A DNA stretch of 64,000 nt, taken from contig NZ_ABIZ01000001.1 of NCBI RefSeq assembly GCF_000172155.1, forward strand, positions 310,001-374,000. The letters are read 5' to 3'. Position numbers and translations under genes: made by a program. Positions within the stretch are counted from its first letter, which is position 1; every line of letters starts with the position of its first letter. The stretch comes from Verrucomicrobium spinosum DSM 4136 = JCM 18804 (GTDB lineage Bacteria; Verrucomicrobiota; Verrucomicrobiia; Verrucomicrobiales; Verrucomicrobiaceae). Below, piece after piece: positions 40,348 through 56,532 of this stretch. The notes beneath the pieces are model-generated. The model was not told the DNA's origin. It did not search any database and was given only the letters and a program-made list of their open reading frames with translations.

Positions 40348-41826
40348 TCAAGGTTTGAACTGGAAGGCAAAAACGTCGGCATCCTTCAGCACGAAGCGCA
40401 GACGCACGGGCTTGCCTGCGAGAGAGGAGACGTCGGATGTGGACCTCCAGCGTACTTCTCTCTCGATAGCGTTACCGATGAGTTCATTGTTTTCGGTGAG
40501 CAAAAATTGCGGGACAGGCTGTCCGCTGGCATCTTGCAGCTCAACCTGCACAAACCCTGCAGCGGATGTGCCAAAATTAAGGACGAGCCTGGAGCCTGAG
40601 AAGATGAACGGGCGGGTGATCAACTCACCACCCTCATAGTCCGCGTGCACGGAAGCAAATCCGTCCAACCGCATATTATAGCGGCGCAGATGGGCGGTAG
40701 GCTGGGCATAGTCCTGATTGGCATACACCGACATCTCCTCCGGTCCGGTCTGGACAACGTTCAGGGCTGGATAGCCGGTGCGGGAGACCCACTCAGAAAG
40801 GCGGGTGCCCGGCCGGATGAATCCCTCGCGGAAAGTCTGGTCGTAGGTCTCACCGTCGCGGGAGGTAAGCAGCACGCTGTCGGAGACGTCTTTGGCCGAC
40901 TTGTAGTAGGAGGGCTCCACCTTCAGTCCGGCGGCCTCCTCATCCGTGAGGGCGGCCTTTTTGGGCAGGAAGCGGGCCGCGGTGGCCACATAGAGATGGG
41001 GTGCGCGGAAATAAGGGTGGGTCTGGCTGGTGTAGAGGTGGTGCTCCTGAGCGGGCAGGAACTTCATGGGCACCGGGTCGGACCAGTTTACGAAGTCCTG
41101 GGAGGTGCTCCGGGACATGGAGCGCAGGCCGGTGGGTCTCCACTCCTTATCACTGACCGTGCCCTTCGTGAAAATACGCATGACGCATACGTAGCAGTTC
41201 TCCAGGGGTGACCAGAACGCGACATTCTGGGAGTCGAAAGCCCCCTTCGTCACCACAGGGCGGTTGTAGAGGTTCTTCCAGTGGATGCCGTCCTCCGATG
41301 CGTAGGCGTGAAGACCGCCTGTGGAGGCGTTGTTTCCAATAATCCCACCCAGCGCCTTGAACCTCTCCGCCGCGGGCACTCCCGGCCGCGTGTCCAGAAA
41401 AGGGCTGAAGTTGTGGGTGATGCCGCGGTCCGTGAGAATCACGTTGTTGTCGCGGGAGCCGCCCACTTCATGCAGCCCCAGCTTGGGCTTCACCCACTTC
41501 TGTCCGTCATCGCTCGTGGCATAGCAGGTGACTTCCCGGCTGCCATCGGCTCCGCCCTCCTTGCCCCGGTAGTAGAGGTGGTACTTGCCACCTTCGTGAA
41601 TGACGGTGCAGTAGCCTGCGAACTGCCCCTCCCACGGCTGGTCAAAGCGGAGCACCTCGCCCTCATCATGGGGATGATGAAGTTGAAGGTTCACGCCCTT
41701 CATGGTCTCAACCAGGAAGCGATCCACGAACAACTCGCGACGCGAACCGATGTCCGGCACCGTAGGGGTGGAGGCCAACAGGGAGGATGCCAGACCCAGT
41801 GCGCAGAGGAGGGAGGTGATCTTCAT
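40348..41826 (-). CDS. Exported glycoside-hydrolase-like protein (GH32/GH43-type five-bladed propeller)
   Basis: A 492-residue protein with a signal peptide (MKITSLLCALGLASSLLAST). The mature part begins PDIGSRRELFVDRFLVET and has propeller strands such as AGYCTVIHEGGKYHLYYRG, ATSDDGQKWVKPKLGLHEVG and LHAYASEDGIHWKNLY. The end (SLAGKPVRLRFVLKDADVFA) is shared by many Planctomycetes/Verrucomicrobia proteins annotated as GH32-superfamily. It lies last in a three-gene minus-strand unit with two sialidase-like genes. Exact linkage specificity is unknown. Given the neighbours it probably acts on the same extracellular glycan as they do. Confidence 0.75.
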   Translation of the reverse strand: MKITSLLCALGLASSLLASTPTVPDIGSRRELFVDRFLVETMKGVNLQLHHPHDEGEVLRFDQPWEGQFAGYCTVIHEGGKYHLYYRGKEGGADGSREVTCYATSDDGQKWVKPKLGLHEVGGSRDNNVILTDRGITHNFSPFLDTRPGVPAAERFKALGGIIGNNASTGGLHAYASEDGIHWKNLYNRPVVTKGAFDSQNVAFWSPLENCYVCVMRIFTKGTVSDKEWRPTGLRSMSRSTSQDFVNWSDPVPMKFLPAQEHHLYTSQTHPYFRAPHLYVATAARFLPKKAALTDEEAAGLKVEPSYYKSAKDVSDSVLLTSRDGETYDQTFREGFIRPGTRLSEWVSRTGYPALNVVQTGPEEMSVYANQDYAQPTAHLRRYNMRLDGFASVHADYEGGELITRPFIFSGSRLVLNFGTSAAGFVQVELQDASGQPVPQFLLTENNELIGNAIEREVRWRSTSDVSSLAGKPVRLRFVLKDADVFAFQFKP

Positions 41827-44428: not shown

Positions 44429-45427
44429 ATGCCATCCATACTCATCATCGGCTGCGGCAGCATTGGGGAACGGCACCTGCGCTGTTTCCTAAGCACGGGG
44501 CGCTGCACGGTTGCGGCGGTGGAGACCCGCGAAGAGCTTCGCCTTGCGATGCAGGAGCGCTACGGGGTGCCATGTCACTCCTCGATCGAGGAGGCTCTCA
44601 CGACTGGCGGATGGGATGCAGCCGTGATCTGCACGCCGGCTCCCTTGCATCTGCCCATGCTCCAGGTCTTGCTGGCGCATGGTCTGCACGTACTGGTGGA
44701 GAAGCCGCTGGCGGTGGATCTGGATGAAGTGCCTGCAGCACGTGCCGCTCTGGCGCAGCATCCTCGCTACGTGGCGGTGGCTTATGTGTATCACCTCATG
44801 CCCTGGGTGTTGGCAGCGCGGGACTATGTCGCGACAGGCAGCTTGGGCACCGTCCTGCATGCCACCGTGATGGCGGGGCAGCACTTCCCCACCTTCCGGC
44901 CCGCTTATCGCGAGATCTACTACGCCCGGCATGAGCAGGGTGGCGGTGCAGTGCAGGATGCGCTGACTCATCTGGTGAATGCCGTGGAGTGGCTCATCGG
45001 CCCCTGCACTCAGGTGTATTGCGATGGCAGCCACCAGATGCTGGAAGGCGTGACAGTGGAGGACACGGTGAATGTGGCCGCCCGCCACGGCATGGCCATG
45101 GTGAGTTATGCCATGAACCAGTTTCAAGCGCCCAATGAAACGTTCATCCTCCTGCATGGCACAGAGGGCAGCCTCGCGATTGAGGGCCACCGTCAGCGTT
45201 GGGGAGTCCTGCAACGGGGCAGCGCAGACTGGACCTGGCACACGGTGCCCCCTCTGGAGCGGGACGAACTTTTCATCCGGCAGGCGCACGCCTTTCTGGA
45301 TGGCATGGAAGGCCGGCCCTCGCCGCTCTGCAGCTTTGAAGAGGCCGTGCAAACCCTGCGCTTCAACCGGGCGGCGTTGCAATCCATTGCGGAAGGCGTG
45401 CCGGTGACCATCTCGCAAGTTTCATGA
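44429..45427 (+). CDS. Gfo/Idh/MocA family oxidoreductase (cytoplasmic)
   Basis: A 332-residue NAD(P)-dependent oxidoreductase with no leader. The nucleotide-binding loop is ILIIGCGSIGERHLRCF (G-x-G-x-x-G) and the catalytic-lysine motif is VLVEKPLAVDLDEVP (EKP). The substrate domain has HEQGGGAVQDALTHLVNAVE, in which D and H are in the usual G-G-G-x-x-x-D-x-x-x-H arrangement. Members oxidise C2, C3 or C1 hydroxyls of sugars and inositols. It starts the plus-strand catabolic operon and is controlled by the palindrome at 44358-44378 by position. Its stop overlaps the next gene by 4 bp (ATGA). Confidence 0.9.
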   Translation: MPSILIIGCGSIGERHLRCFLSTGRCTVAAVETREELRLAMQERYGVPCHSSIEEALTTGGWDAAVICTPAPLHLPMLQVLLAHGLHVLVEKPLAVDLDEVPAARAALAQHPRYVAVAYVYHLMPWVLAARDYVATGSLGTVLHATVMAGQHFPTFRPAYREIYYARHEQGGGAVQDALTHLVNAVEWLIGPCTQVYCDGSHQMLEGVTVEDTVNVAARHGMAMVSYAMNQFQAPNETFILLHGTEGSLAIEGHRQRWGVLQRGSADWTWHTVPPLERDELFIRQAHAFLDGMEGRPSPLCSFEEAVQTLRFNRAALQSIAEGVPVTISQVS

Positions 45428-46386
45428 CGATCCCGAAACCACCACTGCGTCTGGCCATGCTGGGCATGATCGAGGGCAATGGTCACCCCTACTCCTGGAG
45501 TGCCATCATCAATGGCTATGATCCCGGCGCCATGGCGCAGTGTCCCTATCCCACCATCCTGGACTATTTGGGCAGGCAGGACTTCGCCAGCATCGGCATC
45601 CCAGATGCCCGTGTGACGCATGTCTGGACGGATGACCCTGCGGATGCCTGCAAGGTCGCAGCGGCGAGCCTCATCGAGCACGTGGTTTCCCGGCCGGAAG
45701 ATGTCATTGGCCTGGTGGATGCGGTGGTCATCGCCACGGATGACGGGGACGATCATGTGGGCCGGGTGGCTCCATTTGTCGAAGCGGGGCTCCCTGTATT
45801 TGTGGACAAGCCGATGGCGACGAATCTGGCAGACTTGCGGCAGTTTGTGCAATGGCAGCGCGCCGGGGCCGTCCTGCTCAGCAGCAGCGGCATGCGTTAT
45901 GCCCCCGAACTCCAGCTGAGCGCGGAGCAGCGCCAGCAACTGGGGGAGCTGCGCTGGATCACCAGCTTCACCTGCAAGAGCTGGGAGCGGTATGGCATTC
46001 ATGCGTTGGAAGCCGTCTATCCTCTGCTGGGACCGGGCTTCGAGACGGTGCAGACCCAGCATCGCCAGGGCTCGGACATCGTGCATCTCACGCATCGCAG
46101 CGGGGTGCCGGTGACGCTCGGGGTCGTGCAGGATGCGGTGGGGAGTTTTGGCTCCGTTCATCTCTATGGCACCGGGGCACAGATGCCCTTCCTCTGCCGG
46201 GACTACTACAACGCCTTCCGGGCGCAACTCGTGGCCTTCATCCAGATGCTGCAGACCGGCCAGCCGCCGTTCCATTTCAGCCAGACGGTGGAGTTGATGG
46301 GCATCCTCATTGCCGGCCGCCGCAGCCGGGAGCGGGGTGGGCAGACTATTTCGCTCGCCAGCATTCTGCAGGAAACCCTTGCTTGA
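45424..46386 (+). CDS. Gfo/Idh/MocA-like oxidoreductase with divergent N-terminus
   Basis: A 320-residue protein. It starts LRLAMLGMIEGNGHPYSWSA, where the normal G-x-G-x-x-G loop is replaced by G-M-I-E-G-N-G, followed by AMAQCPYPTILDYLG, which is an unusual insertion. The strand 'VDAVVIATDDGDDHVGRVA' and the motif LPVFVDKPMATNLADL (DKP for EKP) place it in the family. The N-terminus is similar to a Planctomycetes/Verrucomicrobia subgroup found with aldolases. It is coupled to the previous oxidoreductase by a 4-bp overlap, so the two may act as a pair or in consecutive steps. Confidence 0.85.
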   Translation: MTIPKPPLRLAMLGMIEGNGHPYSWSAIINGYDPGAMAQCPYPTILDYLGRQDFASIGIPDARVTHVWTDDPADACKVAAASLIEHVVSRPEDVIGLVDAVVIATDDGDDHVGRVAPFVEAGLPVFVDKPMATNLADLRQFVQWQRAGAVLLSSSGMRYAPELQLSAEQRQQLGELRWITSFTCKSWERYGIHALEAVYPLLGPGFETVQTQHRQGSDIVHLTHRSGVPVTLGVVQDAVGSFGSVHLYGTGAQMPFLCRDYYNAFRAQLVAFIQMLQTGQPPFHFSQTVELMGILIAGRRSRERGGQTISLASILQETLA

Positions 46387-46412: not shown

Positions 46413-47225
46413 ATGATCCTCCGTCCCAGCCGCATCCTCAGGGAGCTCCGCAACGGTGCCAATCCGTGCACGCTGAAGCTCAATCTCAACGACCCCCGCG
46501 TGATCGAGATGGCGGGCCTTTCTGGAGCATCAGGCGTCTGGATCTGCAATGAACACGTTCCGAATGACTGGTCGAATCTGGAGCACCAGGTGCGGGCTGC
46601 CCGGCTGCATGACCTGGACAGCATCGTACGGGTCAGCAAGGGGGCGTACAGTGACTATGTGAAGGCCTTTGAACTGGATGCCACGGCCATCATGGTGCCG
46701 CATGTCTCCACAGAAGAGGAGGCCCGCAAGCTGGTGGAGATGACTCGCTTCCAGCCGCTGGGCAGGCGTCCCATTGATGGGGGCAACATCGACGGCGGTT
46801 TTTGCCAGGTGCCTATAAAGCAGTACCTGCACCACAGCAATACGGAGAAGCTCCTGATCTTCCAGATCGAGTCTCCTGAGGCGTTGGATCGGGTCGAGGC
46901 AATTGCCGCAGTGCCAGGTTATGATGTCCTGCTCTTTGGCCCGGGCGACTTCAGCCATCTGATCGGAAAGGCGGGGCAGATCCATGATCCGGAGGTGGTC
47001 GCGGCTCGGAAGAGGGTGGCGGCGGCAGGCCGTCAGCATGGGAAACACCTCATGATGCCGGGTATGATCGGCCCGCGACGTGAACTTGAAGAGGAGGGCT
47101 GGCGCATCTTCAATCTGGGGGCGGATGTCCTTTGTCTGGGCAGCGCCTTCAATCAACTGGTGGCAGAGTATCAGGGCACTCCTGCGGTGGCCCCTGCGGC
47201 CGTGTACAACTCCAGTGACAAATGA
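46413..47225 (+). CDS. HpcH/HpaI family aldolase (first of two)
   Basis: A 270-residue class II pyruvate-type aldolase or lyase. The metal ligands are Glu153 (FQIESPEALDRVEAI) and Asp179 (LLFGPGDFSHLIG). The catalytic His sits in WICNEHVPNDW, the analogue of the family's D-x-E-H. HpaI-type enzymes cleave 2-keto-3-deoxy acids or 4-hydroxy-2-oxo acids to pyruvate and an aldehyde. ATG 46413 matches the family N-terminus; the frame is open far upstream but there encodes only a shadow of the oxidoreductase. It overlaps the next SDR gene by 4 bp. Confidence 0.9.
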   Translation: MILRPSRILRELRNGANPCTLKLNLNDPRVIEMAGLSGASGVWICNEHVPNDWSNLEHQVRAARLHDLDSIVRVSKGAYSDYVKAFELDATAIMVPHVSTEEEARKLVEMTRFQPLGRRPIDGGNIDGGFCQVPIKQYLHHSNTEKLLIFQIESPEALDRVEAIAAVPGYDVLLFGPGDFSHLIGKAGQIHDPEVVAARKRVAAAGRQHGKHLMMPGMIGPRRELEEEGWRIFNLGADVLCLGSAFNQLVAEYQGTPAVAPAAVYNSSDK

Positions 47226-48013
47226 CCGGCAATATGAGCACCCTCAGCAATTTCAGTCTTACTGGCAAGGTGGTCCTTCTCACCGGTGGTGCTGGCCTGT
47301 TCGGCCGTGGTCTGGTGCGCGCCCTTGCTGGAGCGGGGGCCACCTTGATCCTCGCTTCCCGGGATGTGGCCAAGCTACAGGTGGTGGCAGAGGAGGAGCG
47401 CGCGTCAGGGGCCACGGTGCAGGCGGAGTTTCTTGATCAAGGGGATGAGGCTTCTATCAACGCGTTGTTTGAGCGCATTCAGGTGGAGCACGGGCCTTTG
47501 CATGGATTGGTGAACAACGCGGTGCTCCGTCCCATGAAGGGCGCTCAGGGGACCGTGGCCCAATGGGAGGACTCCATGCGGGTAAATGCCACCGGGTTGA
47601 TGCTCATGCACCGGGTCTTCGGTGCAGCCATGGCCGAGGCCGGGCGGGGAAGCGTGGTCAACATCGGCTCCATCCAGGGCATGATCGGCCCCAGCTATGA
47701 GTTGTATGAGGGCACGGCCATCGGCGACATGCCGCCAGACTATTTCTTTCACAAAGGAGGGATGCTCAATCTCACCCGGTTCTACGCGGCGTTGTACGGG
47801 CCTCGGGACGTGCGCGTGAATTGCGTGTCACCGGGTGGTTTCTTCAATCACCAGCCGGAGGCGTTTGTGAAGCGGTACAGCGAGCACACCATGTTGAACC
47901 GTATGGCGGATGACAATGACCTGGGCGGGGCGGTGGTGTTTTTGTTGAGTGACGCGTCCAGGTATGTGACCGGTGTGAATTTGCCGGTGGATGGCGGGTA
48001 CACGGCGAAGTGA
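47222..48013 (+). CDS. Short-chain dehydrogenase/reductase (SDR)
   Basis: A 263-residue classical SDR. The cofactor loop is KVVLLTGGAGLFGRGLVRAL (T-G-x-x-x-x-G-x-G). The catalytic Tyr-x-x-x-Lys is in DYFFHKGGMLNL, with a Ser in SVVNIGSIQGMIG before it. The C-terminal part 'DVRVNCVSPGGFFNHQ' and NLPVDGGYTAK are family typical. It is the last gene of the operon with two Gfo/Idh oxidoreductases and the aldolase. Oxidation of a hydroxyl of the deoxy-acid intermediate or of the sugar itself is likely. Confidence 0.9.
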   Translation: MTGNMSTLSNFSLTGKVVLLTGGAGLFGRGLVRALAGAGATLILASRDVAKLQVVAEEERASGATVQAEFLDQGDEASINALFERIQVEHGPLHGLVNNAVLRPMKGAQGTVAQWEDSMRVNATGLMLMHRVFGAAMAEAGRGSVVNIGSIQGMIGPSYELYEGTAIGDMPPDYFFHKGGMLNLTRFYAALYGPRDVRVNCVSPGGFFNHQPEAFVKRYSEHTMLNRMADDNDLGGAVVFLLSDASRYVTGVNLPVDGGYTAK

Positions 48014-48375: not shown

Positions 48376-49368
48376 TCACTCCTCCTTCAACAACGCCGCC
48401 ACCGGAATCCGGAAACACGCTGCGCTGCGGTGCTTCTTCTGATCCTCACCACCGAGCACGTAGATGAAGCCATCTCCTCCCTTCACCAGACACACCAGCG
48501 CCTTGATCGGCAACGGCAATGCCTTGCGATACTGCTGGGTCCGCACGTCGTGGATCCACGCTGCATCCAGAAACCCTTGTTCATCGGTGCCGTAGCCACC
48601 CGCAAGATAGATATGTTGATCATCCAAAGCCACGGCGGCGACACCGCGGGCACTGACGGGATACGGATCCAGCTTCGTCCACGTCTTGGAGGCGATATCA
48701 TATGCTGCCGCTTCCGCGGAGTTCTGCACCTGGCCATTCTCCGTTGACATCCATGCCCCGGTGAAGGCATAGACCTTCCTGCCGCTTCCCACCACTGCAG
48801 GCAGGCCAATCCCCGGACCTTCCCGGCGCAGGGGATTTTCATTGGAAGCCTTGCCACTCGTGGAAACCGAGCTCAACGCCGTTGTGACCTGCTTCCAATC
48901 ATCGGGATCAGGTGTGCCGCCATAGATCCACAAACTGCCCTCCATAAAAGCTCCACCCGAAAAAGCAACATGGTGGTTCATGGTGCCTACATGTTGCCAC
49001 GAGCCTTCCTTCGTCAGCGCCAGCACTTCGTTTCGTGCCATCTTTCCATCGGCACCGCCCGCAATCCAGAGTTGCTGACCATCGCTTGCCCCGGCGCCGT
49101 AGGCCAGAGGGTGGGGCAGGTCGGGTCCGGGTGTCCATTGATTGGTCCCGGGATTATAGACCCAGGTCTTGTTCAGCCAGCGTTTCACGCCTTCCGGCCA
49201 GTTGGTCCCGCCTGCGATGACCAGTTTTCCATTCACCCATCCTGCGGCAAATCCGGCATTGGGTTCGGGCAGCGGGGCGATGGATACCCAAGTCTCCGCA
49301 GCAACGGGCTGCGTGCTGGTGAGGGCAATCACAGTGAGGGTGATGAGAAGGTGGCAGGGAGGTTTCAT
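48376..49368 (-). CDS. Exported kelch-repeat beta-propeller protein
   Basis: A 330-residue protein with a signal peptide (MKPPCHLLITLTVIALTSTQ, P-V-A-A-E). It contains about six kelch blades with G-G and W patterns: AAGWVNGKLVIAGGTNW, AGASDGQQLWIAGGADG, GAFMEGSLWIYGGTPD and ALDDQHIYLAGGYGTDEQG. Exported kelch proteins include NanM, the sialic-acid mutarotase, and cyclically permuted mutarotase-like proteins beside symporters. Given the sialidase-like neighbours, a mutarotase role is a fair hypothesis only. The start at 49368 overlaps the previous stop by 4 bp, which decides it over the ATG 8 codons upstream. Confidence 0.85.
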   Translation of the reverse strand: MKPPCHLLITLTVIALTSTQPVAAETWVSIAPLPEPNAGFAAGWVNGKLVIAGGTNWPEGVKRWLNKTWVYNPGTNQWTPGPDLPHPLAYGAGASDGQQLWIAGGADGKMARNEVLALTKEGSWQHVGTMNHHVAFSGGAFMEGSLWIYGGTPDPDDWKQVTTALSSVSTSGKASNENPLRREGPGIGLPAVVGSGRKVYAFTGAWMSTENGQVQNSAEAAAYDIASKTWTKLDPYPVSARGVAAVALDDQHIYLAGGYGTDEQGFLDAAWIHDVRTQQYRKALPLPIKALVCLVKGGDGFIYVLGGEDQKKHRSAACFRIPVAALLKEE

Positions 49369-49937
49369 GACGAAGGAGGAGGGAGAGGGCATTTGTCGTC
49401 AGGGTCTGTGGCCCGACGATAGAGATCATGAGGACTGGATGGCGTCTGCCATCCGGGGTGGAGGCGCACATCGGCCGCTCCGGCGAGTTGGCCCTCTTCA
49501 GAGGGTCCTGCGGTGCTCTCTTCACGGCGGATCTCCCACCAGCACTGGCCGCAGTGGTTGTGTTCGTGATCAATAACGAATCCGGCGTCTTTCATCATGG
49601 GACCGATCCAGCCCATGCAGTGGTCGCAATAGTCCCGGTACTGCACCAGTCCGTTCTGGATGAGGAATCCCTTGGACGGGCATTCATGCATGTCGATGCG
49701 GAACACTTCTTCAGTGGCGTGAATGGCGTATCCTGCCGCCTCGTGATCCAGCGTGTGGCCCCAGTAGGCGCGCATGCCGGCAAAGCCCTGCGGAAGGATC
49801 AGCTCCCGCGCATGCTGTTGAGAGTCCCTGGAAATGCCTTCTTCCCAATACTGGCAGACCAGGTCGTGGCCGCCCTCCGCCTCCAGCCAGGCAAAGGTCC
49901 ACTCATAGTGTCCGCAGAAGTCGTAGCAACCGATCAT
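49365..49937 (-). CDS. Cys/His-rich protein of unknown function (first unfamiliar locus protein)
   Basis: A 190-residue soluble protein. It has a striking set of metal-ligand-like residues: CYDFCGHYEW at the N-terminus, IDMHECPSKGF, 'YRDYCDHCMGWIGP' and VIDHEHNHCGQCWWEI. The last two resemble the Cys-rich core of L-2-amino-thiazoline-4-carboxylate hydrolase-like proteins and DUF6125 (two Cys pairs separated by about 25 residues), but I cannot assign a family with confidence. The tail after residue 145 is low-complexity. The gene overlaps its neighbours by 4 bp on both sides, so it is tightly coupled between the next Cys-rich gene and the kelch gene. Confidence 0.75.
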   Translation of the reverse strand: MIGCYDFCGHYEWTFAWLEAEGGHDLVCQYWEEGISRDSQQHARELILPQGFAGMRAYWGHTLDHEAAGYAIHATEEVFRIDMHECPSKGFLIQNGLVQYRDYCDHCMGWIGPMMKDAGFVIDHEHNHCGQCWWEIRREESTAGPSEEGQLAGAADVRLHPGWQTPSSPHDLYRRATDPDDKCPLPPPSS

Positions 49938-50449
49938 GACAGGGATGCGAGGGTGATTTCCTCCAGATCCTGCGGCGGCCGACCGGTGCTGAGAGGAATG
50001 AACCTCTGTACACAGCGGCCGTTGCCCCCTTGAACCCGTACGGTGAAACCAGCGGGTGCCGCCATGGCTTCACTCACAAAATAGCAATGCTCGCAGAAGC
50101 AGGGCACAATCTCCCTCTTCTGCTGGCGCAGGTGCGCGATGGCCGGGCACACTTTCACGTCCAGCCGGACTTCGCAGTCGTCCTGGGTCACGCTCACCTC
50201 ACTGCCAGGTTCGGCCTCGTAGAAGGCCTGCCAGTATTGGGCGATGCCCGCGGCTCCGTGCGTCTGCCATCGTCTGGAAACCGGGGCAAAGTAACGGTGG
50301 CCCATGTCCGACCAGTAACGGCGCAGCCCTTCCTGTCCCAGCCGGTTCAAAATGAAACGGAAGGTGGCATTGATGGCCATGTAAAAGTCGGCAGCGCCTT
50401 GAGGTTTGGTGTCGCGATACGGCAGTGCGACCGAAGGCTCTACGTTCAT
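49934..50449 (-). CDS. Cys/His-containing protein of unknown function (second unfamiliar locus protein)
   Basis: A 171-residue soluble protein without leader. The N-terminal half is helical (MAINATFRFILNRLGQEGLR, RYWSDMGHRYFAPV), then a beta segment (GSEVSVTQDDCEVRLDVKVC) leads to a Cys/His set, VCPAIAHLRQ and VPCFCEHCYFVSEA. The pattern (CPAxxH, then C-F-C-E-H-C) parallels the Cys arrangement of the next gene's product, and both may belong to one distant ATC-hydrolase-like group. It lies between the HpaI aldolase and the other Cys-rich gene with 4-bp overlaps on both sides, so expression is coupled. I do not recognise a described function. Confidence 0.75.
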   Translation of the reverse strand: MNVEPSVALPYRDTKPQGAADFYMAINATFRFILNRLGQEGLRRYWSDMGHRYFAPVSRRWQTHGAAGIAQYWQAFYEAEPGSEVSVTQDDCEVRLDVKVCPAIAHLRQQKREIVPCFCEHCYFVSEAMAAPAGFTVRVQGGNGRCVQRFIPLSTGRPPQDLEEITLASLS

Positions 50450-51237
50450 GACGGATCTCCTTTCCCCAGCAGTTCATCCAGCTTGAAAGAGCAGGCTTCC
50501 AGTTCCCGATAGATGCCAAAGAATTCACTGCCCATTGCCACCAGTTGGGCACCCATTTCCACGATGGTGCGGGCATCTTCCACGCTGCCGACTGGCATGC
50601 CCCAGGGCTTGCCCTGCTTGCGACAGGCAGCGGCCAGAGTGGCCACCGCGTCTCGCAGTACAGGATCCTGCACTGACGGCTTGCAACCGAGTCGGAGCGA
50701 GAGATCGCCCGGACCAAGGAAGAGCAGATCCACACCTTCCACAGCGGCAATGGCCTCCACGTTTTGAATGGCGAGCGGGGTCTCGATCTGGACGACCAAT
50801 GCAGTCTCCCGGTTGGCCCGTGCGGGATAGTCATCCGGCTTGTGGATCCAGTAGCCCGCGTCCAACCCGGAGCCATCGAGCCCGCGATCTCCCAGAGGTG
50901 GGAACTTCGTATGCATCACCAGTTCCCGGGCTTGTTCCGGCGTGTTCACATGCGGAATCATGAGCCCAGCGGCTCCGTCTTCGAGATAGCGTGACAGCGC
51001 TGCCTTTCCAGACAGTGAAGGCCGGAAGATGCAGTCGATGCCCGCATGATGATGCCGCAGGATCATCTCGCGAATGTCGCCCGCCTCCCAGGCACGATGT
51101 TCCGCATCCATCCACACGGCGTCGTAGCCGAAGCGGGCGGCGAGTGCTGGGAAATAAATGACAGGGGAGCCGGTGGAGCAGGCGCGGGCCACTCCTCCGT
51201 TGCGGATCTTTGCAAGCAGTTTGGATGTCGTGATCAT
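50446..51237 (-). CDS. HpcH/HpaI family aldolase (second of two)
   Basis: A 263-residue aldolase. The catalytic motif is VWMDAEHRAWEAG (D-x-E-H), stronger than in the first paralogue. Metal ligands are in VVQIETPLAIQNVEAI (Glu) and LLFLGPGDLSLRLG (Asp), and the substrate Arg is in DCIFRPSLSGK. It is the first gene of a four-gene minus-strand operon (aldolase, two Cys-rich proteins, kelch), each overlapping by 4 bp. The ATG at 51237 is chosen as the standard family start (MITTSKLLAKIRNG). It is divergent from the symporter gene with a 110-bp promoter region. It differs clearly in sequence from the paralogue at 46413, so the two probably act on different intermediates. Confidence 0.92.
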   Translation of the reverse strand: MITTSKLLAKIRNGGVARACSTGSPVIYFPALAARFGYDAVWMDAEHRAWEAGDIREMILRHHHAGIDCIFRPSLSGKAALSRYLEDGAAGLMIPHVNTPEQARELVMHTKFPPLGDRGLDGSGLDAGYWIHKPDDYPARANRETALVVQIETPLAIQNVEAIAAVEGVDLLFLGPGDLSLRLGCKPSVQDPVLRDAVATLAAACRKQGKPWGMPVGSVEDARTIVEMGAQLVAMGSEFFGIYRELEACSFKLDELLGKGDPS

Positions 51238-51306
51238 GACTATGGAGGATGAATAACGTGAAATTTGAGATGAGGCTTGTTGCAGAAAATTATACATTTA
51301 TGATCA

Positions 51307-51321
51307 TGCAGAAAGTCTGCA
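51307..51321. promoter_or_regulatory. Small palindrome TGCAGA-AAG-TCTGCA in a divergent promoter region
   Basis: A perfect 6-bp inverted repeat with 3-nt centre lies between the divergent aldolase and symporter genes. The half sequence TGCAGAAA also occurs at about 51280. It differs from the 21-bp palindrome at the ends of the locus, so another regulator could bind here. Confidence 0.5.
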
Positions 51322-51347
51322 CAAACCATCCCCGTAGTATCCCGAGC

Positions 51348-52826
51348 ATGGCACGATTTACTTTGCTCGACTATGGTATCTTCGCTGTCTATCTCGCGGC
51401 GTCTGTGTTCATCGGCATGTGGTTTTCCCGGGGCGAGAAATCGCTGAAGGAGTACTTCCTGGCCGGAGCTCATATGAACCGCTTCGTGGTCGCCATGACG
51501 ATTCTTGCCGCACTGTTCTCGGGCATCAGCTATCTGGCAGGGCCCAGTGAAGTGTACACCAACGGCATCGCCTTCTCCCTGGTGCTGCTGTCCTTCTTCA
51601 TCGCCACGCCATTCACCTGCATCTGGATCCTGCCGCACTTCTACAACAGCCGTTACTTCACGGCTTATCATTTTCTTCAAGAGCGGTTCTCCCTTTCGCT
51701 TCGTCTGCTGGCATCGGGCCTGTTTATCCTGCGAGTATCCCTCTGGCTGGCGGCGGCCACTTATGCACCGGCTCTGGCGTTGAAGGAGGTCACCGGAATG
51801 CCGCTCTGGTTCACCATCATCTGCACGGGCGTCGTTTCCACCATCTACACCATGATGGGCGGCATGCGGGCCGTGATCTGGACGGACATCATGCAGCTGG
51901 GCGTGCTCTTTGGCGGGCAATTGATCATTGTGCTGGTGGCGCTGGGGAAGATTCCCGGCGGTCTGGCCGGTGTGTGGGACATTGCCCAAGCCGGTGGGAA
52001 ACTGGATGTGAGCCTCTCCTTTGATCCCAGGGAGCGCGTCACCCTCTGGGGCGTCATCATCGGTGGTGCTTTCCTGAACCTGGTGCAGATGGCCACGGAT
52101 CAGGTCTCTGTGCAGCGTTATCTCACGGCCACCAGCCTGCGCGAGGCGCAGCGCTCCTTGTGGATCAAGCTCTGGATGATCCTGCCGGTGCTGGTGCTCT
52201 TTTACGGCACGGGGCTCGTGCTTTACGCCTTCTATCACAGCACTGGCGACCCGCTGACCACTGGGCAGATCAACCGCGCCGACCAGATCCTGCCTTACTT
52301 CGTGATCACCCAGCTTCCGGTCGGCCTGCCGGGTCTCCTGATTGCCGCCATCTTTGCGGCCAGCATGTCCACGGTGTCTTCCGGGGTGAATTCTCTTACC
52401 TCCGCCACGATGTGTGACTTCTACCAGACGCTCACCAAGCCCGGGATGTGGAGCGAAAAAGCCCTGCTGTTCCGCGCCAAGCTGTTCACGTTGTTCTACG
52501 GAGCGCTGGTCACCGGGCTTGCCTTCGGTATTGCCTCCATGAAGAGCAATCTGGTGGAGTCGGTGAACAGCGTCATAGGTCTCGTGGGCGGTCCCATGCT
52601 GGGGCTGTTCCTGCTGGGCATCTTCAGCCGCAGGGTGGACAGCCGTGGGGCCATCCTGGGTTGCGTGGCCGGGTTTCTCGCGCCGATCGGTCTGATGTTC
52701 TACAAGACGGTTCCTCCGGGTGGCGGTGATCCGGTGCCGATCTCCTTCCTCTGGTTCAGCATGATCGGCTGTCTGGTCACCGTGTTGGTGGGCCTGCTTA
52801 CACCTTCCCGATCTGTGCCACGGTGA
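51348..52826 (+). CDS. Sodium:solute symporter (SSS family)
   Basis: A 492-residue membrane protein with about 13 helices. The start ATG 51348 gives [20 protein letters not shown] as first helix; codons further upstream are not plausible. SSS landmarks include the loop [20 protein letters not shown] after helix 1, [19 protein letters not shown] (sodium-site helix), and '[20 protein letters not shown]' with the S-x-x-S-S sodium motif (SSGVNSLTS). Such carriers take up sugars, sialic acids, myo-inositol or amino acids. In this locus it is the obvious import route for the breakdown product made by the exported enzymes. The stop overlaps the convergent SDR gene by 29 bp. Confidence 0.92.
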
Positions 52827-53559
52827 GCCCCCCGTCCACCACGATGACTTCGCCGGTGATGTAGCGGGCGGCTTCGGAACAGAGGAAGACCACCGCACCA
52901 GCGCAGTCCTCGGGCGCGCCCACATGTCCGAGCAGGATCTTGTTTTCATAGTGTGTGAGCAGTTCTTTGGCTTGGGGCACCATCCACTCCTCGGTGAGCG
53001 GGGTGCGGATCAGTCCTGGTGCGATGCCGTTCACCCGGATGCCGTGGGGGGCCAGGGAGACGGCCAGGGAGCGGATGAGCATGAGCAGCGCCCCTTTGCT
53101 GGCATCATAGGCACAGGAGTTGACCTCTCCTTGAAAGCCGTTGGTGCTGGAGGTAATGACGATGTTTCCCGGCCTGCCTGCCGCCACGAGATGGCGGGCG
53201 AACGCCTGTGCCAGGAAGAAGGTGGAGGTCAGGTTGAGCGCGAAGGTGCGCTCCCAGCGCTCCCGTGTCATTTCCAAAACCGGCAGGTCAAAGAAGCTGC
53301 CGGCATTGCACACCAGTAGATCCAGTGCGGCATCCGCCGCCAGGGCATTGGCCATCAACTGCTCTGCCGCCGTCTCCTGGGTGAGGTCGGCCAGCAGATA
53401 GACCGCCGGTTCCGGCACGCCGGACGGACGTGGCTGATGGCCGTGATAGATCACCCGTGCCCCGGCTTCGGCCAGGCCCTGTGCGACCGCGAACCCGATG
53501 CCCTGCGAAGACCCAGTGACCAGGCCGGACCGGCCCTCAAGAGAGAATGCTTTCATCAT
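52798..53559 (-). CDS. Short-chain dehydrogenase/reductase (SDR)
   Basis: A 253-residue classical SDR. The cofactor loop is [19 protein letters not shown] (T-G-x-x-x-G-I-G). The catalytic Ser and Tyr-x-x-x-Lys are in [12 protein letters not shown] and [25 protein letters not shown] and [14 protein letters not shown] are typical C-terminal segments. The start overlaps the amidohydrolase stop by 23 bp; a second Met (53556) is nearly equivalent. The gene ends inside the end of the symporter gene on the other strand. It belongs to the unit SDR, amidohydrolase, SDR. Confidence 0.9.
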
Positions 53560-54511
53560 GCAGCTTCAGGTACGCGAGGGTGTTGGTGGAGGCAATGCGC
53601 GTCACCACCTCGGGCGGGCTCGCTTGCAATGCCCTCACCTCCTTCTCGTAGGTGCTGATCAGCTTCACCACCCGGTGGTTGATCTCGGCGGCATAGCTGT
53701 AGAAGGGGGAGTCACTGCCCCACAGGAATTTGGCAGGATACGCCGCCGCCAGATCCGCGATCACGCGATCAGGCCGGGTGTAGTCGCTGTCGAACCGGCG
53801 CGACCGTGGTGCGATGTACGGCAGATCGTCCACCGCCCCCACGCAGTGGATGCAGTGCGCCGAGCAGTCGAACCACGTGTTGGACAGTTCATTCACACGG
53901 TCCAGGCACTCGCGGTCATACCGGCAGGAGTGCGCCAGGCAGAAACGAACTTCCGGGTTGGCCTCGGCGAGATCGAGAATATCAGACGCCTGAGCCCAGA
54001 GATCACTCTCCGCGACACTGCTGTGGATGAGAAAGGGGACATCCCACTCCCGCGCCAGTTCCAGGAAGACCTTCCCTTCATGCGCGAGCCGTTTGATGTC
54101 GGCCTGAATGATGGTGCTCTGGATCTTGATCCCGTGAAAGCGATACTGCCCCCTGAGCTGGCGTAGCTCGGACGCCTGGGCGGCGGTCTCACGCAGGGGG
54201 TCCACCATCACAAATGGGAGTGTCTTGCGCCCTTCTTCAGGAAACAACTTCTGACACTCTTCCAGCAGACGGCGGTTCTCAAACGCGTAGGGCACCTTCT
54301 CCAGTCCACCGGAGCCAAAGCCCACCTCCCCGGCGCGAAATCGGGTGGTATCCATGGCGGCATAGGAAACAAACGGAAACACCACCCAGTGCGTGACCCC
54401 CAGTGCGCCGCCCTCGTGGATCATGGCCACGAGCTGCTGGGCGTAAGGGAAGTCCCCGTGCAGATAAAAGAGCAGGTCCGCTCCTACGTGGTTGTGGCAG
54501 TCGATGAGCAT
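53537..54511 (-). CDS. Amidohydrolase family 2 protein (TIM-barrel hydrolase)
   Basis: A 324-residue cytoplasmic hydrolase. Motifs: [14 protein letters not shown] (H-x-H), [29 protein letters not shown] (His), [14 protein letters not shown] (His) and [16 protein letters not shown] (Asp). These are the metal and catalytic positions of amidohydrolase-2 enzymes, which are lactonases, decarboxylases or amidases. Between two SDR genes a lactonase step after sugar oxidation is the simplest reading, though the local sequence does not look particularly like L-fuconolactonase. It starts 24 bp after the upstream SDR gene. Confidence 0.88.
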
Positions 54512-54535
54512 GAGGGGGAATGTAGGGTTCGTGCG

Positions 54536-55318
54536 TCACCAGGCCGTCCAGCCGCCGTCCACGGCGAGGTTCTGGCCGGTGATGAAACTTGCGGCATCGC
54601 TGAGGAGAAAGACCACCGCACCGGCGATTTCCGAGGCGTGGCCCACCCGGCCCATGGGGACCTTGGATGAGAGCCGGCTGACAAAGTCCGGATGATCCAC
54701 CTGCACCTGGGGATTTGGGAAAGGCCCTGGCGAGATGGAGTTGCAGCGCACGCCATGAGGGCCGTGATGCACGCCGAAGTAGCGGGCCATCTGCTGCACC
54801 CCGGCCTTGCCTACGCCGTACTCGATCGGATTGGGCGTCATCGGCTCCTTGTACATTCTTGGATCGGGCGACACCGTGCCATACATGCTGGAGAAGAGAA
54901 CCATGCTGCCGCGGCCCTGGCGGGCCATGGCGGCTCCGACTGGCCGGGCCAGGCAGAAGGTGGCGGTGAGATTGCCGTGGTTGGCTGCATCGAACTCCGC
55001 CGCGCTGAGCTCGTCCAGCCGACGAGCGCTGGACTGGAACGTCATCACCACCAGGCCATGGGGCGTGCCCCGTGTGGCCAGTTGTGACTCCACGAACCGG
55101 GCGGACTCCTCCACATCGTTCACATTCAACGAGGCCGGGGTGACCTGCCCGGTCCAGCCCGTCTCGGTCACTGCCTGTGCGGCCCGGTCTTCCAGATCCA
55201 CGCACAACACGCGTGCGCCCATCTCCACGAGCTGCGTCACCACGGGTCTGCCCAGGTAGCCTGCGCCGCCAAACACCCAGATGTCCCGCTGATGAAGATG
55301 AAACAACGGGGCGTGCAT
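54536..55318 (-). CDS. Short-chain dehydrogenase/reductase (SDR), divergent from the regulator gene
   Basis: A 260-residue SDR. It has the cofactor loop IWVFGGAGYLGRPVVTQL with an atypical first residue (F-G-G-A-G-x-L-G instead of T-G-x-x-x-G-x-G). The catalytic set is MVLFSSMYGTVSP (Ser) and EYGVGKAGVQQM (Y-x-x-x-K). NLAVDGGWTAW is a normal C-terminus. It is the first gene of the minus-strand unit SDR, amidohydrolase, SDR. Its promoter region, 122 bp wide, is shared with the GntR-LacI regulator gene and contains the second 21-bp palindrome. Confidence 0.88.
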   Translation of the reverse strand: MHAPLFHLHQRDIWVFGGAGYLGRPVVTQLVEMGARVLCVDLEDRAAQAVTETGWTGQVTPASLNVNDVEESARFVESQLATRGTPHGLVVMTFQSSARRLDELSAAEFDAANHGNLTATFCLARPVGAAMARQGRGSMVLFSSMYGTVSPDPRMYKEPMTPNPIEYGVGKAGVQQMARYFGVHHGPHGVRCNSISPGPFPNPQVQVDHPDFVSRLSSKVPMGRVGHASEIAGAVVFLLSDAASFITGQNLAVDGGWTAW

Positions 55319-55419
55319 GTTTCTCTGGAGGTAGTGAGGGAAGAGGATGAGGGCCGACGTGTCAGTCAGGCCGGTTGGGGATTTTGGCTTGCGGCCTGCG
55401 GGCGAACAAGCGTAGGCTC

Positions 55420-55440
55420 CTGGTCACTTCCCCTGACCAG
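55420..55440. promoter_or_regulatory. 21-bp palindromic operator, copy 2
   Basis: The arms CTGGTCA and TGACCAG flank the spacer CTTCCCC, identical to the copy at 44358-44378 except for one spacer base. The palindrome ends at the base before the regulator's ATG. Binding here would repress the regulator itself and possibly the divergent SDR unit. Confidence 0.85.
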
Positions 55441-56532
55441 ATGTCGTCCCCTGATCCGTCATCGCAACTGGCGCTGCCCCAGCGGTACTCGCTTACAACC
55501 CAGACTGTGCACAGCCTGAAGGAGGGGGTGCGCTCAGGTCACTGGCAGGCGTATCTGCCGGGGGAGAGGGATCTCTGCGCCCAGCTTCAGGTGAGCCGCC
55601 CCACCCTGAGGGCGGCGCTGGAGGTGCTGGAGGCGGACGGCTGGGTCACGGCATCGGCCCGCCAGCGTCGCCTCATCTGTGCCGGAGTGTCGGCTGTGAC
55701 GGAGGTGGGGCCGTCCCGTCTGATTGCCGCCATCTCCTCCCGTCCCTTGCTGGAGATGGCCCCCACCTCCATGTGCCTGGTGGACGACCTGCGCGCCAGC
55801 CTCAATAGCGCCGGGTTTGGTTTTGAGCTGCACATCAGTCCGGCCAGTTACACGGAGCATCCGGACCGGTCGCTGGATGCTCTCGTGAACCGCGTGCCCG
55901 CAGCGGCCTGGGTGATCTTTGGGTCCAAGGATCCCATCCAGCAGTGGTTTGTGCGCCGTAAGCTGCCTTGTCTGGTGGTGGGGTCCAGTTCGCCGGAGAT
56001 CGCGCTGCCCTCGATTGACTCTGACTTCCGCGCCACCTGCCGCCATGCGGGCGGCTTGTTGAGGCGCAAGGGGCATCGGAGCATCGCGCTGGTCCTGCCT
56101 AAAGGAGCCTTCGGTGGCGATGCGGACAGCGAGACGGGTTTCCTGGAGGCCATGGCTGCGGAAGCTGCCGCCGCACCTGCCGTCATCCGGCACGACGGCA
56201 CCGCGCCACATTTGTGCAAGCTCATCGACCGCGCCATGAGCGGCCCCCATCCTCCCACCGCCTTCATTGTGGCGAGGGGGCTGCATGTGGTCACCGTCAT
56301 GATGCACCTCATGCGGAAGGGCAAACGGATCCCCGAGGACGTTGCCGTGATTTCCCGTGATGACGACGCTTTCCTCGAGCATGCCGTGCCTCCTGTCGCC
56401 CGCTATGCCACCAGCCTCAGCCAGTTCACCCGGCGGGTCTCCAGTGCGGTGCGCCGCCTGGCAGAACACGGTCGGGAGCCGGTGCGTGCCATCCGGCTCA
56501 CCCCCAAATTTCTCCCCGGTGGCACCGTCTAG
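55441..56532 (+). CDS. GntR-LacI hybrid transcriptional regulator
   Basis: A 363-residue regulator. The N-terminal winged helix (about residues 15-75) is GntR-type: QTVHSLKEGVRSGHWQAYLP, GERDLCAQLQVSRPTLRAAL and EVLEADGWVTASARQ. The C-terminal part (about 90-355) is a LacI/periplasmic-binding-like effector domain: HAGGLLRRKGHRSIALVLP is the diagnostic G-x-R-x-I-A/G pattern and GKRIPEDVAVISRDDDAFLE the hinge strand. Such hybrids (AraR type) respond to sugars and repress catabolic operons. The start codon directly abuts the palindrome, so no Shine-Dalgarno sequence exists; a leaderless transcript or a TTG/GTG further upstream would be alternatives. It is probably the master regulator of the 40.3-57 kb locus. 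Confidence 0.9.
   Translation: MSSPDPSSQLALPQRYSLTTQTVHSLKEGVRSGHWQAYLPGERDLCAQLQVSRPTLRAALEVLEADGWVTASARQRRLICAGVSAVTEVGPSRLIAAISSRPLLEMAPTSMCLVDDLRASLNSAGFGFELHISPASYTEHPDRSLDALVNRVPAAAWVIFGSKDPIQQWFVRRKLPCLVVGSSSPEIALPSIDSDFRATCRHAGGLLRRKGHRSIALVLPKGAFGGDADSETGFLEAMAAEAAAAPAVIRHDGTAPHLCKLIDRAMSGPHPPTAFIVARGLHVVTVMMHLMRKGKRIPEDVAVISRDDDAFLEHAVPPVARYATSLSQFTRRVSSAVRRLAEHGREPVRAIRLTPKFLPGGTV

Follow-up and report, generated by a model that had tools for sequence, protein, structure and literature searches.

What does a pair of small cysteine- and histidine-rich proteins do when its genes are wedged between those of a pyruvate-forming aldolase and a kelch protein? The question is raised by a stretch of 64,000 nucleotides (the window) of the 8.22-Mb single-contig genome of Verrucomicrobium spinosum DSM 4136, in which the minus strand encodes, in this order, an HpcH/HpaI aldolase (HpaI_A), two small proteins that we call P2 and P1, and the kelch protein (Table 1). 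Each junction is a 4-bp ATGA overlap (HpaI_A/P2 at 50446-50449, P2/P1 at 49934-49937 and P1/kelch at 49365-49368, the last presuming that the kelch protein starts at the ATG giving MKPPCHLL). The initial annotation had described just such an arrangement, and the frames and junctions are as it described them. From the analysis below we conclude that the two proteins probably make up a metal-binding enzyme or sensor of two parts, at work in a sugar-breakdown pathway that is still uncharted.

P1 and P2 belong to a single undescribed family, as tandem paralogues: comparison of their profiles by hhalign gives a probability of 99%, an E-value of 6.8e-18 and 20% identity over 148 columns. The sequences for the profiles (A1, 46 P1 sequences; A2, 46 P2 sequences) came from the window together with 54 fetched regions and two named loci, L003 and L004; each profile keeps 46 of the 55 sequences collected, those dropped being mostly close relatives of retained rows, and A2 also leaves out the divergent, truncated P2 of L101. 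Both frames are genes under constraint, since comparison with two loci of the same genus gives nonsynonymous divergence (dN) of 0.04-0.13 and synonymous divergence (dS) of 0.27-0.95, a dN/dS of roughly 0.07-0.26. Within its own genome P2 matches itself alone at E<=0.001 and P1 matches itself and, weakly, P2; among named organisms, the closest P2 relatives are those of Verrucomicrobium sp. BvORR034 (88% identity) and BvORR106 (80%).

The two-member arrangement proposed at the outset holds well beyond this genome. Among 387 genomes of the phylum P1 occurs in 58, P2 in 55 and both in 54, counts of unequal sensitivity because P1 was sought with profile A1 and P2 with a single sequence, and in the sole genome with P2 alone (G265) the match is weak and contains an internal stop. 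P1 was found in 21 of 57 closer relatives. A scan of contigs with the P2 sequence returned three loci, all from Verrucomicrobium or Verrucomicrobiota, and no relative was found in viral contigs scanned with A1 or in plasmids scanned with one short P1. The 4-bp P2/P1 overlap recurs in 38 of 50 loci, the window among them, with start codons picked by alignment. Across 89 same-strand gene runs, P1 is present in 84, P2 in 81 and both in 76; these counts depend on a simple purpose-built gene caller, which gave no pair call in two of 91 loci (L066 and L104) and lost the P1 of L110 and L116, and several genomes contribute more than one locus. Pairwise distances of P1 and P2 correlate at r 0.91 over 44 loci, a value confounded by species history, as the correlations within three lineages are 0.57, 0.47 and 0.17. 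Doubled copies also occur: P1-P2-P1 triples, with two P1 and one P2, stand behind a DHDPS aldolase in L155, L156 and L157, and P1 is doubled in L096, L173 and L174.

Conservation differs sharply between the two partners. In P1, 17 columns are invariant in all 46 sequences (M1, F7, Y11, F15, G51, G54, Y58, E66, C86, P87, S88, Y103, C104, H106, C107, G119 and C132), among them a Cys/His set of C86, C104, H106, C107 and C132, arranged as C86-P-S and Y103-C104-x-H106-C107. Three P1 lineages can be told apart by their N-termini, YDFC (21 sequences, including the window), PSDHF (16) and CTEF (9). The paired Cys/His motifs to which the initial annotation had pointed are present in the window, as C104-D-H-C107 and DHEHNHCGQC (ending in C132) in P1 and as C101-P-A-I-A-H and C117-F-C-E-H-C122 in P2, but not all of them are general: H126 and H128 of P1 are kept in 21 of 21 members of the window's lineage and not outside it, save for one H128 elsewhere, while C129 varies even there (Cys in 11/21, 0/16 and 5/9 of the three lineages). 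All 22 P2 sequences of the first lineage have Cys at positions 101, 119, 122 and 146, and this lineage also keeps C101-P102; the second lineage has Thr for C122 in 15 of 15 and retains C101, C119 and C146; in the third (CTEF), C119, C122 and C146 are missing from all nine sequences and C101 from three of them. Only P1 keeps its set strictly, and for that reason we assign the putative active or metal site to P1. We infer from these sequences that the set binds metal; of the earlier suggestion of metal enzymes, a metal site is plausible.

Neither protein belongs to any named family. P1 of the window matches nothing in Pfam or NCBIfam at E<=10; P2 matches SnoaL_2 and Herpes_ORF28 alone in Pfam, both below cut-off, and passes no NCBIfam family. 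Sequence searches of the PDB with both proteins and both profiles gave no credible match. V4R (PF02830) and XylR_N matched neither window protein at E<=10 nor any of the 46 P1 and 46 P2 at E<=5, and DUF6125 (PF19620) and the Pfam TRAPP family matched none of these proteins either. Of the two families to which the proteins had been likened, DUF6125 finds no backing, as P2 scores at noise against it, as it does against V4R and XylR_N (one sequence each). The other, ATC hydrolase, fares better at a distance. It is the most frequent Pfam match at E<=5, in 23 of 46 P2 (best E 0.0002) and 7 of 46 P1 (best E 0.026), and competes with SnoaL_2 in 15 of 46 P2 (best 0.0011) and AVR-Pik_HID in 5 of 46 P1 (best 0.0075). 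With a profile made from 15 ATC-type proteins (A4), P2 reaches a score of 31.5 (36.5% probability), the highest among 11 control families being 17.5, and P1 scores 16.8, within its control range (up to 20.1); the method is weak at such distances, as ATC hydrolase itself scores 12% against the V4R sequence and 20% against that of DUF6125. By sequence, the kinship of P2 to ATC hydrolase is marginal, and a likeness of both proteins at the superfamily level is plausible.

Could the pair then be a true ATC hydrolase, opening a cyclic nitrogen or sulfur compound? The frequent, if weak, Pfam matches and the P2 profile score speak for this, but we consider it highly improbable. Neither window protein passes the curated score of PF14196, or matches the family at all, and in P1 several of the competing weak families outscore it. 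The R-T-x-T motif, whose R153 and T156 are invariant in 15 of 15 ATC-type sequences, is found by direct reading in neither window protein between its last two conserved Cys, and is equally missing from the low-confidence alignment of P2 with the ATC profile (that of P1 stops short of the region). In 12 plasmid regions, ATC-type genes adjoin an M20 or Zn-dependent hydrolase in eight, and the short stretches around them carry no annotated aldolase. The proposed removal of a nitrogen or sulfur group likewise finds no support: none of the neighbour families listed for the pair points to such chemistry, one L-sulfolactate-dehydrogenase-type match being present in 87.

The predicted structures are AlphaFold2 models built from A1 and A2, and their likenesses to known folds have moderate scores. 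In Foldseek searches of the PDB no E-value of either protein falls under 0.001; PoxR, MopR and Bet3 fill the first eleven rows for P2, at a probability of 1.00. With VIA-align 2 the top match of P2 is Bet3 (6aq3_B, Z 8.8, root-mean-square deviation (rmsd) 3.9, 141 residues aligned) and that of P1 is TPC6 (2bjn_A, Z 7.4, rmsd 3.8, 129 aligned), the next rows being BcsD, MopR, PoxR, DmpR, YslB and H-NOX, and the first designed proteins appear at Z 5.9 and 4.9. Most of the TRAPP, BcsD, MopR-type, YslB and H-NOX-like matches belong to one superfamily. The modelled fold of P1, suggestive when taken alone, is strengthened by its paralogy with P2, and a likeness of both to the V4R/HNOX-type fold superfamily is tentatively supported, more weakly than the paralogy or the co-occurrence. 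Sections of two published papers agree with such a grouping: V4R and Bet3 have been argued to share an origin (PMC2253512), and the HNOB, V4R and ATC hydrolase domains have been called similar, with a cluster of three Cys common to V4R and ATC hydrolase (PMC5847659). The profile and structure searches called for initially place neither protein in a well-characterised family.

This fold brings in the possibility that the pair is a non-catalytic, V4R-like ligand-binding heteromer, which would sense or deliver an intermediate and tune the aldolase or another enzyme, its Cys/His residues holding a structural zinc. We keep this as a serious if somewhat doubtful alternative, because most characterised relatives of the fold (phenol sensors, H-NOX and TRAPP subunits) are binders, and TRAPP proteins heterodimerise, as in entries such as bet3-trs31. 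In the sections we draw on, MopR-type sensors of the same fold hold their structural zinc by three Cys and one Glu (PMC10715001) and V4R is proposed to signal to effectors in cis or in trans (PMC2253512). The invariant set of P1, however, has more Cys and His than this MopR site, the aldolases that accompany the pair come from two unrelated families, and no effector partner was identified, fusions having been judged by frame length (up to 413 amino acids, in L152).

The link to aldolases is broader than the initial annotation, which tied the pair specifically to HpaI, had supposed. In 57 non-duplicate loci (L002 was dropped as lying on the same contig as L063), an aldolase stands upstream on the same strand in 26, immediately in 25 and with one gene between in L086, one of the 26 (L091) being a 103-amino-acid piece only; the background is 11 of 440 other same-strand neighbour pairs of the same loci. 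These upstream aldolases are of the DHDPS/NAL type in 19 loci, spread over 12 family labels, and of the HpaI type in seven (six in the window's family and one unplaced), so that P1 and P2 do keep together but have an HpaI partner in a minority of loci. Over the 89 runs, DHDPS occurs in 40, kelch in 16, HpaI in 9, SDR in 9 and aldo-keto reductase (AKR) in 8, the cluster names for these and other neighbours resting on one representative each. In L151 and L171, DHDPS-family and HpaI-family aldolases lie in the same run as the pair, and the two may act at separate steps.

These frequent, closely spaced or overlapping upstream aldolases would also fit a pair that is built into the aldolase as an accessory subunit, in a physical complex. 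We regard this as improbable, given that HpaI and DHDPS/NAL are unrelated, that both can share one run and that many loci have no adjacent aldolase. Since two unrelated aldolase families are the partners, we favour a shared metabolite over one fixed protein partner.

Other neighbours bear on the pathway. Of 68 loci that lie outside the window's family, 10 have the SDR at 47222 as their best match among the window's proteins (37-64% identity); the HpaI proteins of L151 and L171 match HpaI_B, the second HpaI-family protein of the window, at 46% and 44%. At a limit of E<1e-58, HpaI_B has relatives in 35 of the 58 P1-bearing genomes and in 27 of the 329 that lack P1 (Fisher p 5e-18, uncorrected for phylogeny); that limit was set after viewing the results, and at the search's own limit of 1e-40 a hand count gives 44/58 and 28/329. 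The nearest solved relative of HpaI_A is the 2-keto-3-deoxy sugar aldolase YfaU (PDB 2vws, E 2.9e-31). Together, the co-occurrence of HpaI_B, the recurrence of the SDR, an SMCT1-like transporter and the YfaU-like HpaI_A point to one pathway of sugar-acid type. A set of DHDPS, SDR, AKR, P2 and P1 recurs in varying order in L151, L168, L171, L176 and L181, and a kelch gene follows the pair directly in 15 of 57 loci, every one of them from the window's family. As a further idea, the pair might stand in for a sugar-acid dehydratase: no such enzyme of the IlvD/Edd, UxaA or MR_MLE type is present among 25 of the 86 Pfam families matched (87 of 110 operon neighbours scanned), and a cluster with an MR_MLE representative lies within 8 kb of the pair in four loci. 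A sialic-acid theme is suggested by GDSL lipases/esterases (7/87), NanR-type regulators (2/87), BNR neighbours, the NanM-group kelch protein and the DHDPS/NAL aldolases; no kinase of a sialic-acid route was seen among the 14 window proteins scanned. The L-glucose/L-galactose pathway of Luteolibacter, as set out in part of its description, uses different enzymes (PMC12632266).

The explanation that we tentatively prefer, while holding it somewhat short of an even chance, is that P1 and P2 form a heteromer with a putative metal site in P1 that is catalytic on an intermediate next to the aldolase step. The two proteins, of a V4R/ATC-hydrolase/TRAPP-Bet3 type fold, would act jointly; the P1 site (C86, C104, H106, C107 and C132) would lie close to a pocket with E66 and conserved aromatic residues in its lining, and P2 would be the partner, with a site of its own in partial decay. 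The pair might then perform a metal-dependent hydrolase- or lyase-type step on an intermediate of 2-keto-sugar-acid type that is product or substrate of the pyruvate aldolase whose gene often comes just before those of the pair, as part of a cluster for sugar-acid catabolism. We choose catalysis because a structural zinc would not need a Cys/His set as strict as that of P1, because P2 decays while P1 does not and because the partner aldolases come from two unrelated families. A bolder form, in which the pair is a new two-subunit metalloenzyme family on a sensor/TRAPP fold filling a gap, such as the dehydration of a sugar acid or the opening of its ring, in a non-phosphorylative pathway spread over the phylum, seems to us unlikely as it stands; there one subunit would be catalytic and its paralogue decaying, a bacterial heterodimer resembling the TRAPP core but serving metabolism.

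Several observations weigh against the preferred explanation. Most characterised proteins of the V4R/TRAPP-type fold are binders or sensors. P1 is at noise against ATC hydrolase, V4R, XylR_N and DUF6125; its best Foldseek E-value is 0.13, with TRAPP rows leading and designed proteins from rank 5, and its best Z (7.4) lies in the range of common arrangements (Z under 8). A designed protein appears for P2 too, at rank 13 and also with a probability of 1.00. No aldolase lies within two genes upstream in 31 of the 57 loci; genus g3, which is in the window's own family, contributes 13 of these, out of 14 loci in all. In three genomes of that family, moreover, P1 and P2 are apart (G199, G403 and G413; L066/L067, L107/L108 and L104/L105).

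Table 1. Genes of the P2/P1 cluster and its surroundings in the window.
Feature	Position	Strand	Basis or remark
Two Gfo/Idh/MocA oxidoreductases, before HpaI_B and SDR	44429..46386	+	Pfam scan
HpaI_B, second HpaI-family protein in cluster	46413..47225	+	Pfam PF03328, 88.4 bits
SDR	47222..48013	+	by clustering
Kelch protein, apparent signal peptide	48376..49368	-	signal peptide judged by reading the sequence
P1, 190 amino acids, P2 paralogue	49365..49937	-	AlphaFold pLDDT (predicted local distance difference test) 92.0, pTM (predicted template modelling score) 0.88
P2, 171 amino acids, paired family	49934..50449	-	AlphaFold pLDDT 92.3, pTM 0.88
HpaI_A, HpcH/HpaI (pyruvate-forming) aldolase	50446..51240	-	Pfam PF03328, 96.2 bits; start taken as GTG at 51240, an ATG further upstream would give 51297
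Sodium:solute symporter	51249..52826	+	nearest solved: SMCT1 (7sl9), multivitamin transporter; 5nv9 third
SDR	52798-53559	-	by clustering
Amidohydrolase 2	53537-54511	-	Pfam
SDR	54536-55318	-	Pfam
GntR regulator with LacI-type sensing domain	55375..56532	+	Pfam scan

The remaining genes of the window can be read alongside such a cluster. The kelch protein is akin to the cyclically permuted mutarotase/NanM group, yet falls under the cut-offs of those families, and by sequence reading HpaI_B has N-E-H at the place of D-A-E-H in HpaI_A. Uptake of the pathway substrate is a possible role for the symporter, whose third-ranked solved relative, 5nv9, is the sialic acid transporter SiaT. The SDR/amidohydrolase 2/SDR block at 52798..55318 is also present in L063, L064 and L069, and probably represents more enzymes of the same cluster. 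Two further proteins recur. One, of 492 amino acids (40348-41826, minus strand), has no Pfam match at E<=1e-5 and adjoins two BNR (sialidase-like) proteins, with relatives near the pair in L079, L163 and L171. The other, of about 508 amino acids, overlaps P1 by 4 bp in L074 (6899-8425, minus strand) and L076 (7190-8713, minus strand); its representative has no Pfam match, and relatives occur in further pair runs.

In the open-licence literature we found no description of such a pair, nor of a link between V4R or ATC-type proteins and aldolases; the fold is already known, and the arrangement of the pair and its setting appear to be new. Of the phylum's genomes sampled here, about one in seven (58/387) has P1, even though neither protein of the window qualifies for any Pfam or NCBIfam family. 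Should the pair be an enzyme, a sensor and trafficking fold would gain a role in sugar-acid catabolism and supply a step of a widespread pathway; should it be a sensor, it would exemplify a V4R-like heteromer with a link to metabolism. In either case the neighbours that recur (aldolase, SDR, AKR or Gfo/Idh, kelch and SSS transporter) make the question directly testable.

Set beside known systems, the pair resembles each in part. DUF6125 proteins are like P1 and P2 in size and Cys-rich end only, the profile score against one sequence being noise. ATC hydrolases share their size and a CP-type Cys followed by further Cys positions, but the plasmid genes of ATC type are single and lie beside transporter, oxidoreductase, M20 or Zn-dependent hydrolase genes. 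V4R and XylR_N proteins (MopR, PoxR and DmpR) are alike in predicted fold and Cys-rich C-terminal half, the sensor structure 5kbg matching P2 at Z 7.2 (rmsd 4.8, 154 aligned, 5kbg_B) and P1 at Z 5.9 (rmsd 4.0, 143 aligned, 5kbg_A); unlike them, P1 and P2 are a stand-alone paralogous pair in which no effector domain is seen, with neighbours of sugar-acid type, and P1 has CP...YCxHC...C (four invariant Cys and one His) in place of three Cys and one Glu. TRAPP Bet3 and TPC6 differ in being eukaryotic (and Asgard) membrane-traffic proteins, with 6-13% identity in the rows listed and no common context, but they are the best structural matches by Z, and members of their fold, like P1 and P2 as we picture them, form paralogous heterodimers.

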